DNA from: Janthinobacterium sp. PC23-8
GTDB taxonomy: Bacteria; Pseudomonadota; Gammaproteobacteria; Burkholderiales; Burkholderiaceae_D
Length of the DNA stretch: 64,000 bases
Direction: 5' to 3'
Assembly (NCBI RefSeq): GCF_002250505.1
Contig: NZ_NJGY01000004.1
Coordinates: forward strand, 299,672-363,671
Below the pieces are notes generated by a model. It worked only from the letters and a program-made list of their open reading frames with translations, did no database searches and was not told the origin of the DNA. Both the position numbers and the translations under genes were made by a program. Below, piece by piece: positions 44,552-47,598 of the stretch. Every line of letters begins with the position of its first letter. Position 1 is the stretch's first letter.

Positions 44552-46402
44552 ATGCGGATTGCGATGCCTGCTGCTGCCAATGGCGAGACCCTGCGTACCA
44601 CTGACAAAAAACCGCTCTGGCTGCTCAGTTGCGTGCTGTCGCTGTGCGTCGGCCTGCTGTTCCATATGGCGGCGTCGATATCGATCGACAACGATGCGCG
44701 CGCGCTGTTCGACAGCCTGGCGCAGGCCACCAGGCAAAATATCAATGTGCGCGTCAAGTCGTACACCGATTTGCTGCGCAGCGCGGCCAGCCTGTTCCTT
44801 GCCAGCGACCAGATCAGCCGCGAGCAATTCCGCGCGTATGTGAGTCACCTGGACTTGCGCAACAACTTTCCCGGCGTGATGAATCTCAATTATTGCAAGG
44901 CGCTCGACGAGGCCCAGCACCGCGCGTTCGAGGCGGCCATGCAGCGCGACTATCCGGCCGGGCACGATGGTTACCCGGCGTTTGCCATCGACCCGCCGGG
45001 GCCGCGCGAGCACTATTGCGTGCTGCTGTATATCGAACCGATCGCCAGCGCGCCGGAAAAATATGGCCATGACATCGCCGTGCGCCCCGCCGTCGCCGCA
45101 GCGCTGGCGCAGTCGCGCGACTCGGGCGAGATCAGCAATTCCGGCCTGCGGGTGCCGATGCCGGGCCGCCCGCAGCTGACCGGCATGGCCATGCGCCTGC
45201 CCGTCTACCGCAATGGCATGCCGGTCGGCACGGTGGCCGAACGCCGCGCCGCCTACCAGGGCTCGGTGGGGCTCGGCTACGACCTGGGACTGATGGTGCA
45301 CGGTCTGCTGGCAGAGATGCCTGTACGCAACGTTCGCCTGACCCTGTTCGATATCGGACCGCAGGCCACCTCGGCACAGGCCCTGGCGCACGATACCCAT
45401 CCCGTGTTCGACAGCGTGCCGGCCGCCCCATCCGTACCCTGGTGGCAGCCGGGCGGCTCGCACGACTACCTGAGCAGCACCATGCTGATCGACTACAACG
45501 GGCGGGTGTGGCAAGCACTGTTCAGTGTGCGCAAGAGCGAGCTGTACACACAGTTCGAAACCTCTCTGCCGTGGCTGGCCCTGCTGGTGGGCTTTACCGG
45601 CAGCATGCTGCTCTACACCGTGTTGCACACGCTGGCCTCGTCGCGCCTGCGCGCCATCCGCATGGCTACCGGGATGACCGAGGAATTACGCGCCAGCCAG
45701 TTGCGCCTGCAGCAATCGCACCAGAAACTGCGCCGCCTGGCGGCCCACGCCGACCATATCAAGGAGGAAGAGCGCAAGCGCATCGCGCGTGAAATTCATG
45801 ATGACCTTGGGCAAAACCTGCTGGTGCTGCGCATCGACGCCGACATGCTGGCCTCGCGCACGCAGCAACGCCATCCGCGCCTGCATGCGCGCGCCCGCGC
45901 CACCTTGCGCCAGATCGACGCCACCATCAAGAGCGTGCGCCAGATCATCAACGACTTGCGCCCCACCGTGCTGGACCTGGGCGTGAACGCCGCCGTGGAA
46001 TGGCAGGCGGCGCAGTTCCGCTTGCGCACGGGGATTGTCTGCGAGATCAGCGAAAGCCATGGCGACATCAGCCTGAGCGACCAGTGCGCCACCGCCCTGT
46101 TCCGCATCCTGCAAGAATCATTGAGCAATATTTCACAGCACGCCAAGGCCAGCCGGGTACAGATCAAGCTGGAAAAATACCGCGACAGCATCTCGATGAC
46201 CGTCAGCGACAATGGCGTGGGCGCCGGCGCCGACAGGCGTAACAAGCAGGGCTCGTTTGGCCTGGTCGGTATCGAGGAGCGCATCAAGCTGCTGGGCGGC
46301 ACCTTCCTGATCGACAGCAGTCCCGGCGCGGGCATGACCGTGCAAGTAACCGTGCCGCTGGCGGCCGGCACGCAAGACCTTCCGCCAGGCGCCGCCAGGT
46401 AA
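44552..46402 (+). CDS. CHASE-domain sensor histidine kinase (NarX-type HisKA_3)
   Basis: A 616-residue membrane kinase. A first membrane segment near 28-46 leads into a CHASE-type extracellular domain (AQATRQNINVRVKSYTDLLR, FPGVMNLNYCKAL, GLRVPMPGRPQLTGMAMRLP), then a second segment near 345-370. The HisKA_3 box is REIHDDLGQNLLVLRID and the ATPase domain has DNGVGAG and GLVGIEERIKLLGG. CHASE domains sense small molecules. No response regulator is adjacent, so it is an orphan here. The start is uncertain: ATG at 44486 would add 22 residues. Confidence 0.83.
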   Translation: MRIAMPAAANGETLRTTDKKPLWLLSCVLSLCVGLLFHMAASISIDNDARALFDSLAQATRQNINVRVKSYTDLLRSAASLFLASDQISREQFRAYVSHLDLRNNFPGVMNLNYCKALDEAQHRAFEAAMQRDYPAGHDGYPAFAIDPPGPREHYCVLLYIEPIASAPEKYGHDIAVRPAVAAALAQSRDSGEISNSGLRVPMPGRPQLTGMAMRLPVYRNGMPVGTVAERRAAYQGSVGLGYDLGLMVHGLLAEMPVRNVRLTLFDIGPQATSAQALAHDTHPVFDSVPAAPSVPWWQPGGSHDYLSSTMLIDYNGRVWQALFSVRKSELYTQFETSLPWLALLVGFTGSMLLYTVLHTLASSRLRAIRMATGMTEELRASQLRLQQSHQKLRRLAAHADHIKEEERKRIAREIHDDLGQNLLVLRIDADMLASRTQQRHPRLHARARATLRQIDATIKSVRQIINDLRPTVLDLGVNAAVEWQAAQFRLRTGIVCEISESHGDISLSDQCATALFRILQESLSNISQHAKASRVQIKLEKYRDSISMTVSDNGVGAGADRRNKQGSFGLVGIEERIKLLGGTFLIDSSPGAGMTVQVTVPLAAGTQDLPPGAAR

Positions 46403-46576: not shown

Positions 46577-47263
46577 ATGGATATGAACGATGATTTCAAG
46601 GTAATTGCCGATCTGAATCTGGACGCAATCAAAGTCAAACTGATGCACCTGGAATCCGGCGAAGGCTGGAGCCTGGAAAAGGCCAATGCGGTGGAGTTCG
46701 AATACCGCCGCTTCCTGATCCTGATGAAGCAGTTTCCCGACGAGGAAACGGCGCCATTGATGGATGTGGACACCTTCTGGCACTACCATATCCTCGACAC
46801 CCTGAAATACGCAGCCGATTGCGAACAGGTGTTCGGCTACTTTCTGCATCACTTCCCGTATATCGGCTTGCGCGGCGAAGACGACGAAGCGGCCCACGCG
46901 CGCGTGGGCGAGCGCATGAAGCAGTTGTATGAGCAGACCTTCGGCGAAGACTATGTGCGCGCCGAAACCGCCTTTTCGGGACGGGCGGTGCAAGCGGCGT
47001 TTTCCGGGCGTGCGGTGCAGGCGGCGTTTTCGGGACGGGCGGTGCAAGCAGCGTTTTCCGGACGGGCGGTGCAAGCGGCCTTTTCCGGGCGCGCGGTGCA
47101 GGCAGCGTTTTCGGGACGGGCAACTGGTGCCGTCACGGCGTTTTCCGGCGCGGCAACCCCGCTCAGCGCGGCGCTGATCGCCACGTCGGACGCAGCGTTT
47201 GCCGCTGGCGACGTCAAGCGTTTCTATGTCGATAGGCCGGTGTTGCGCCAGGACATAGCCTAA
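46577..47263 (+). CDS. WHxH-motif protein with nine-residue tandem repeats
   Basis: A 228-residue protein in two parts. Residues 1-130 form a helical domain with DVDTFWHYHILDT (W68-H71) and GYFLHHFPYIG, resembling the glycine-rich-domain-containing (GRDP/PF07173-like) proteins. Residues 132-185 are AFSGRAVQA five times in a row plus one degenerate copy (AFSGRATGA), then VTAFSGAAT. The last about 40 residues are Ala-rich and end VLRQDIA. There is no signal peptide. The family assignment is moderate; role unknown. It is transcribed alone between the CHASE kinase and a small HTH gene. Confidence 0.75.
   Translation: MDMNDDFKVIADLNLDAIKVKLMHLESGEGWSLEKANAVEFEYRRFLILMKQFPDEETAPLMDVDTFWHYHILDTLKYAADCEQVFGYFLHHFPYIGLRGEDDEAAHARVGERMKQLYEQTFGEDYVRAETAFSGRAVQAAFSGRAVQAAFSGRAVQAAFSGRAVQAAFSGRAVQAAFSGRATGAVTAFSGAATPLSAALIATSDAAFAAGDVKRFYVDRPVLRQDIA
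46970..47131 (+). repeat. Six in-frame 27-base tandem repeats
   Basis: Units start at 46970, 46997, 47024, 47051, 47078 and 47105. Units 1-5 encode exactly AFSGRAVQA; all base differences between them are at third codon positions (Ala, Ser, Gly, Arg, Gln and Ala codons). Unit 6 diverges in its last four codons. Confidence 0.95.
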
Positions 47264-47358: not shown

Positions 47359-47598
47359 TCAGGCCGCCATCAGTTCGCGCAGTTCGCGAATGCTGAAGTC
47401 GCTGATTTCGTGCATGCGGATCAGGATGGTGGCGCCGATCGGCAGGGTGTTGTGACGAATCTTGCTGATCACGGGCGGCGCCACTTCCAGCGCACGCGAC
47501 AGGGCCGCGTCGTTTTTCAGCTGCAGCTTGTCGATGATGGCATCGAGCACGCGGTTAGGGTTGTAGGTAGGCAGGGAGGTAATTTGTTTGAGAGACAT
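47359..47598 (-). CDS. Small HTH (Cro/CI-like) DNA-binding protein
   Basis: A 79-residue protein, mostly a helix-turn-helix: LQLKNDAALSRALEVAPPVISKIRHNTLPIG reads as the two helices and following turn of the XRE/Cro type, then a C-terminal helix FSIRELRELM. Likely a transcriptional regulator or a component of a small stand-alone switch. AT-rich sequence upstream carries an inverted repeat that may be its operator. Confidence 0.75.
   Translation of the reverse strand: MSLKQITSLPTYNPNRVLDAIIDKLQLKNDAALSRALEVAPPVISKIRHNTLPIGATILIRMHEISDFSIRELRELMAA

Follow-up and report, generated by a model that had tools for sequence, protein, structure and literature searches.

Among the described systems closest to the one analysed here are the ComX-ComP pair of Bacillus and the agr system of staphylococci, in which a peptide gene lies beside the gene of its receptor kinase, and sensor and peptide are polymorphic together with a kinase that stays constant. 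Multi-core RiPP precursors, such as those of the microviridins, join a constant leader to a series of repeated cores. In plants, the GRDP proteins have other partners and carry glycine-rich tails. The Dictyostelium signal SDF-2 is a single peptide rather than a series of repeated copies, and its precursor and the receptor DhkA are not known to be encoded by a neighbouring gene pair. Few bacterial CHASE sensors have, to our knowledge, a known ligand. One bacterial kinase with a CHASE domain is cited as a demonstrated cytokinin sensor (PMC6944256), and in Dictyostelium the CHASE domain of DhkA is bound by the SDF-2 peptide (PMC7316887). A subset of the TIGR04222 membrane proteins has been proposed as MNIO substrates in a 2025 survey (PMC12452194).

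Here we describe a pair of adjoining bacterial genes in which a CHASE sensor accompanies a protein with a repetitive tail. The whole stretch of DNA analysed, hereafter the window, comprises 64,000 nt of Janthinobacterium sp. PC23-8 (NZ_NJGY01000004.1, 299,672-363,671, forward strand) and holds the following features, given in window positions:

44552..46402, plus strand: partner, a CHASE-HisKA_3-HATPase_c sensor histidine kinase directly upstream of GR (Pfam; start codon not certain)
44807..45364, plus strand: CHASE sensor domain of the partner, residues 82-267 (Pfam)
46577..47263, plus strand: repeat-tailed GRDP-like protein ("GR"), 228 aa, an ORF from ATG to TAA
46577..46966, plus strand: putative N-terminal GRDP-like (WHxH...C...HH) helical domain, about residues 1-130 (Pfam, alignment, model)
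46970..47104, plus strand: five exact AFSGRAVQA units of 27 nt each (translation, Tandem Repeats Finder)
47105..47158, plus strand: degenerate units, AFSGRATGA (unit 6, 47105-47131) and then AFSGAAT (translation)
47159..47260, plus strand: C-terminal end with RPVL (pattern RPx[LSRV] in the last 30 residues of relatives)

Our preferred reading, to which we assign a probability of about 0.4, is that the units are, or yield, a peptide made by the cell itself and that the CHASE sensor recognises this peptide, GR and the sensor forming a two-gene recognition system. An AAGGA-like site lies 5' of the GR ORF, and a consensus scan for promoters and terminators returned none in the gap between the kinase and GR, and placed two sites inside the gene. 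After the pair, a small gene on the minus strand (47362-47598) reads like a DNA-binding (HTH) protein; its cluster of similar genes is present in 17 of 36 compared loci, and for the copy in the window Pfam returned nothing at E up to 0.1.

The N-terminal half of GR is marginally assignable, from its sequence, to a divergent GRDP-like (PF07173) helical domain. The original prediction had reported a WHYH and an HHFP motif in the protein, both of which are present, and knew no described role for the combination of that domain with the repeat. In the Pfam search that it recommended, PF07173 (DUF1399), the family of the plant GRDP proteins, is matched at 22.9 bits against a cut-off of 22.7, with model positions 100-143 of 143 aligned to residues 42-81, so that the domain is not wholly unknown; two relatives score 22.1 and 21.4, below the same cut-off. 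In an alignment of 17 rows the mean column identity of the domain is 77%, and the invariant positions include D65, W68, H69, H71, Y78, C82, H91 and H92. AlphaFold2 models residues 1-130 as helical, with ten-residue pLDDT means of 71-91 and one block of 55, and gives values below 50 from residue 130 onwards, the tail being predicted to be disordered. For the N-terminal domain, Foldseek returned no match under E 0.001 and the best fold comparison reached a VIA-align Z of 4.0, searches in which a relative may be missed. The PDB offered only seven weak matches by sequence (best E 0.058), and NCBIfam left the window protein without a hit at E up to 10, TIGR04222 included. Neither a signal peptide nor a membrane segment is apparent on reading the protein by eye. 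A phage origin was considered and discarded, PHROGs having given two weak hits, the best of them (E 0.012) on the repeat. One metagenomic phage record holds a distant relative.

As for the tail, units 1-5 had been described as encoding the same nine residues with differences at third positions only, and this is what the array contains: six variable sites, all at codon position 3, which need at least seven changes. Under the assumption of independent and equally likely changes, the chance that all of them would be silent is about 1.8e-4 (7.87 synonymous sites per 27-nt unit). Tandem Repeats Finder also detects an 81-bp, three-unit period with 94% matches, so part of the silent pattern may be block-copied. 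A search of the host genome with a degenerate form of A[FY]SGRA that also covers close variants gives 28 matches, six of them in the GR gene; because the reversed-pattern control also gives 28, the 22 matches outside the gene, which stand singly in the list, are taken as background.

The further claim that the peptide is selected as the DNA drifts finds support across the family. For 75 proteins that have five units or more, the units of each protein were aligned with one another, seven duplicate loci having been dropped. The pN/pS ratio is 0.06, 0.05 and 0.03 at A-aromatic-[CS]; unit-finding partly fixes these first three core positions, and the test of selection is therefore carried by the next four, with ratios of 0.18, 0.37, 0.19 and 0.41, against 0.5-1.1 in the linkers. 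Silent differences between units amount to 0.40-0.69 per site, with 1.05 at the aromatic, where silent sites are few; a silent divergence of 0.40-0.69 at 16 of 17 offsets family-wide led us to reject recent slippage as the whole cause of the repeat. The low ratios of the core relative to the linkers indicate purifying selection on each short core, with a much weaker constraint on the spacers. Conservation of the repeat, as originally predicted, holds inside a protein, where the units are alike, and not between species and paralogues, where unit number (up to 19) and sequence vary. Since unit sequence changes between species and paralogues, selection keeps the units alike within a protein and does not keep one fixed sequence.

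A tail of this kind might instead act inside the cell as a scaffold, its aromatic-small repeats being the stickers of a disordered, condensate-forming region that clusters the sensor or its targets, with a core that is no ligand. The predicted disorder from residue 130 (pLDDT below 50), the linkers rich in small residues that space the aromatics, the lack of an export signal on reading by eye and the presence of both Cys and Ser after the aromatic are all consistent with such a role. However, selection covers the four residues that follow the aromatic pair, which generic stickers do not obviously need, and in the tandem arrays (see below) tail type goes with the CHASE domain rather than with the kinase in the cytoplasm. 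We consider a scaffold unlikely.

Relatives of GR are present at 35 loci of a named genome collection. A search of 392 genomes of the taxonomic family found the domain in 199, in 17 of them only weakly (best E between 1e-9 and 1e-4), and up to six times in a single genome. Close matches outside the family are rare, being found at E <1e-25 in three genomes of the order sample (300) and four of the phylum sample (398). Seven of 18 plasmid records were examined, and a Halomonas plasmid (L224, 2981-5381) shows a GRDP-like gene beside acyl-homoserine-lactone synthase and LuxR genes. Tails are series of A-[FYW]-[CS]-x-x cores, with up to 19 units. A protein mostly uses one core or two close ones, which differ between species and paralogues; AYSGRA, AFSGQV, AWSARA, AFCGSP, AWCTRT, AWCGRA, AYCAGP and AFCAGP were seen in different proteins, and a few tails, such as that of L031, mix cores (listing made without L034, which lies at a contig end, and without five duplicate loci). 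In the 100 tails with at least three units, counted, like the correlations below, after removal of eleven duplicate loci, the commonest pair is YS in 31, YC in 25, FC in 14, FS in 13, WC in 13, WS in 3 and HS in 1, which places Cys in the commonest pair of 52 tails and Ser in that of 48. The C-terminal RPx[LSRV] is found in 44 of 48 Ser-type proteins versus 9 of 51 Cys-type ones. The regular Cys spacing of Massilia-type tails and the short Cys ends of distant relatives could suggest that the tail is a metal- or thiol-binding store whose state is reported by the CHASE protein, but Ser replaces Cys in the units of the window and of other Ser-type members, and we regard a store as highly improbable.

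The pairing of GR with its partner, a neighbour that the original prediction had left unmentioned, is a new finding that goes beyond the repeat itself; no description of a GR-CHASE pair was found in the literature covered, from which subscription journals were mostly absent. The kinase upstream of GR matches CHASE (E 2.5e-32, 112.6 bits), HisKA_3 (3.6e-13, 50.3 bits) and HATPase_c (1.3e-11, 45.3 bits), all above cut-off. With the partner recognised by its kinase part, a homologue lies within 1.5 kb of GR at 75 of 79 distinct Oxalobacteraceae-type loci (89 minus 10 duplicates), on the same strand at 70 and not at five; of 33 additional family regions, 29 gave matches to the sensor part as well as to the kinase part. 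The remaining four loci are L034, cut by a contig end, and L148, L151 and L152, with GGDEF-EAL neighbours. At L152, a divergent family member, the neighbouring GGDEF-EAL protein holds a CHASE domain, and at L148 it has a dCache match below the Pfam cut-off. Outside the family, on two Cupriavidus plasmids (L219, L220) and one Variovorax plasmid (L225), the repeat-tailed gene lies 70-80 bp downstream of a CHASE-GGDEF-EAL gene. A CHASE match is absent at three repeat-tailed loci, namely L148, L151 and L154, in the last two of which the partner stands at a contig end. Five CHASE queries, effective elsewhere, found no CHASE in the flanks of ten tail-less relatives (L157-L162, L221-L224; L163, whose tail is cut by a contig end, was excluded). 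As CHASE stays and the output swaps, and tail-less relatives show no CHASE match in these flanks, the usual companion of the tail is the CHASE input and not one output. The flanks listed for L146, L147, L149 and L150 have no glnS, unlike those of the glnS loci, and the pair is thus kept in other neighbourhoods. One kinase is accompanied by two GR genes with differing cores at 16 of the 79 loci, a departure from strict one-to-one pairing. L181 (8071-14133) has two tandem kinases of the partner family, together with a longer repeat protein and short pieces of a second one.

Among the recurring neighbours in 6-kb flanks, judged mostly by eye, we recognised no gene for a protease, an exporter or a modifying enzyme. 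The three MNIO proteins of the host, used as tblastn queries, matched a single one of the loci searched, L154, about 8 kb from the gene, and MNIO was dismissed as a partner gene. One of the three MNIO (PF05114) genes of the host (G000:C7:295401-296186) lies about 3.5 kb before the window start; its open frame spans 609 aa, so that it is perhaps fused to a further domain. GR as a precursor of short peptides is a live hypothesis, and a specific form of it would make GR a multi-core RiPP precursor whose enzymes are encoded elsewhere, with an antimicrobial or metal-binding product that the CHASE protein senses to set production. A constant leader-like domain followed by variable repeated cores would fit such a precursor, as would Cys in the commonest pair of 52 of the 100 tails, the three MNIO genes of the host, the methyltransferase and TauD dioxygenase genes adjoining distant relatives with short Cys ends (L158, L221), and the WHxH domains that precede TIGR04222 at L131 and L103, given the proposal that some TIGR04222 proteins are MNIO substrates (PMC12452194). 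Ser, however, occupies the commonest pair of the other 48 tails, the recurring neighbours include no recognised modifying enzyme, and the host MNIO proteins found only the distant match at L154. All considered, a RiPP of this kind seems quite unlikely.

Three genomes of different families share a related gene group (L158, 3244-10522; L162, 220-7231; L221, 4902-10408), in which a small GRDP-like protein, ending in NPCKSTDCR, NPCAATRCR and GCKSQNCP, respectively, precedes a SAM methyltransferase, a TauD-like dioxygenase and a large protein. Pfam identifies TauD in all three, the methyltransferase in L158 and L221, and ABC_tran in the large L158 protein, the other assignments having been made by eye; the group looks like a biosynthetic cluster. 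At L131 (1099-2823) and L103 (1372-2808), the WHxH (GRDP-like) domain preceding the TIGR04222 membrane domain is a possible leader.

In Massilia-type genomes the couple, defined as a kinase and the next downstream GR gene on the same strand, is repeated two or three times in tandem. One of 61 couples, with too few units, and seven duplicate loci were dropped from the comparison. Couples of one locus (11 pairs) differ by 0.34-0.47 in the sensor and 0.24-0.43 in the tail profile, and by 0.05-0.11 in the kinase and 0.00-0.17 in the GRDP-like domain. In the kinase, silent divergence is 0.137 for paralogues (12 pairs, one of which, from L029, includes a gene lacking readable cores) and 0.234 for orthologues (15 pairs); in the sensor the order is reversed, with 0.509 for paralogues and 0.353 for orthologues. 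Such a contrast is the signature of gene conversion acting on the kinase. For the GRDP-like domain the two values hardly differ (0.218 and 0.251), five of the 12 paralogue pairs fall at 0.00-0.07 and the AYCAGPW type stands apart, this domain being homogenised in part, not on average. Sliding identity is mostly 50-80% in sensor windows and mostly 90-100% in the kinase except its end, dips at the gene boundary, rises up to 100% in the GRDP domain and is near 50% in the tail, the high-identity tracts ending before sensor and tail.

Trees were built for 20 couples from 10 loci chosen by A[FYW]C[AS][GS]P tails, with SH-aLRT support from a short search only. They do not include L023, L174, L200 and L207, which share this core; at each of the first three, one kinase is found with two GR genes that have different aromatic residues. 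The aromatic residue of the core requires two changes on the sensor tree, the minimum, versus eight on the kinase tree and seven on the GRDP-domain tree, and the aromatic together with the residue after Pro requires six (again the minimum), 13 and eight. The kinase tree accommodates the grouping by genome with nine changes, the minimum. Sensor and tail match in all 20 couples, and under stricter motif cuts, which retain 13 couples, the sensor tree groups them in the same way. Across 60 couples, the tail has a partial rank correlation of 0.50 with the sensor (reached by 0 of 500 permutations), 0.03 with the kinase and 0.23 with the GRDP domain. The tail-sensor value is 0.225 in the 18 array couples (reached by 10 of 500 permutations) and 0.22 in the 24 single-couple loci outside Janthinobacterium; the 44 single-couple loci give partial values of 0.33 for tail-sensor and 0.35 for tail-GRDP. 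The 20 Janthinobacterium couples show no tail-sensor correlation (0.04; 212 of 500 permutations), with 0.47 for tail-GRDP (3 of 500) and 0.25 for tail-kinase (18 of 500). Between the window and L001 the units have F and Y, respectively, and the sensors differ by 16%.

What distinguishes the couples of an array is their sensors and tails, and these are matched. The simplest functional account is recognition by CHASE of the core or of a product made from it. The main alternative is that two fast-evolving parts, too different for gene conversion, are passively inherited as neighbours, the repeat having a separate, perhaps structural role; such linkage could give part or all of the match. Neighbouring genes do share their history, the high-identity tracts stop before these two parts, and in single-couple loci the tail is as closely correlated with the GRDP domain as with the sensor, to which the lack of a sensor-specific correlation within Janthinobacterium may be added. 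Nevertheless, the pairing is kept in several neighbourhoods, two orientations and two output types, and crossing-over in near-identical tracts should yield mismatched couples (a qualitative argument), of which 0 of 20 were seen. Linkage as the full explanation appears quite improbable to us.

The preferred reading, recognition of the repeated core by the CHASE sensor, builds on the gene pairing with two kinds of output, the selection on the core and the sensor-tail match in arrays. The GRDP-like domain would be a constant carrier or leader, and the tail would present many copies of the A-[FYW]-[CS]-x-x core between freer linkers. We infer processing, export and binding of the core, which would reach the periplasm within the tail or cut out of it, perhaps modified, and would there contact the periplasmic CHASE domain of the partner. 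The output would be a histidine kinase in Oxalobacteraceae and c-di-GMP enzymes in Cupriavidus and Variovorax, and duplicated couples would provide several specificities in one cell. The pair would thereby serve as a peptide signal of the cell's own making or as a means of self-recognition. A broader and rather doubtful proposal is that these pairs constitute a new class of bacterial peptide communication, with a GRDP-like carrier, up to about 19 near-identical peptides, CHASE receptors and an interchangeable effector. Distinct specificities would then coexist in a genome because conversion homogenises the kinase and partly the carrier, peptide and sensor being kept apart. If true, this would represent a Gram-negative route of peptide signalling, with specificity kept up against gene conversion. 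The system places an encoded candidate ligand beside its receptor and offers many natural pairs to swap (in Janthinobacterium, Massilia, Rugamonas and others). Even if the ligand idea fails, the pairing is a handle on the function of CHASE proteins.

Compared with the systems introduced at the outset, the TIGR04222 proteins of L131 and L103 have a WHxH domain found by the family profile and then, at a distance, a low-complexity Cys/Gly tail; the window protein differs from them in having no TIGR04222 hit, no membrane segment on reading and no adjacent MNIO gene, and a link between them and the GR domain is suggestive only. With multi-core RiPP precursors GR shares a conserved leader and variable, repeated cores, and differs in that no modifying enzyme was recognised near it. 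DhkA, like the partner of GR, is a histidine kinase with a CHASE domain, which binds a peptide derived from a larger protein, AcbA (PMC7316887), and it provides a precedent for the preferred reading; it is eukaryotic, unlike the bacterial GR-CHASE pair. The closest likeness in gene arrangement and variation is to ComX-ComP and agr: a candidate peptide gene stands beside the receptor kinase (75 of 79 loci), and sensor and peptide diversify together with a conserved kinase, in Massilia-type arrays though not within Janthinobacterium alone. No processing or export gene was recognised beside GR (6-kb flanks, mostly by eye), and the GR pair differs further from both systems in its Gram-negative hosts, its CHASE sensor and the many core copies displayed on a folded carrier.
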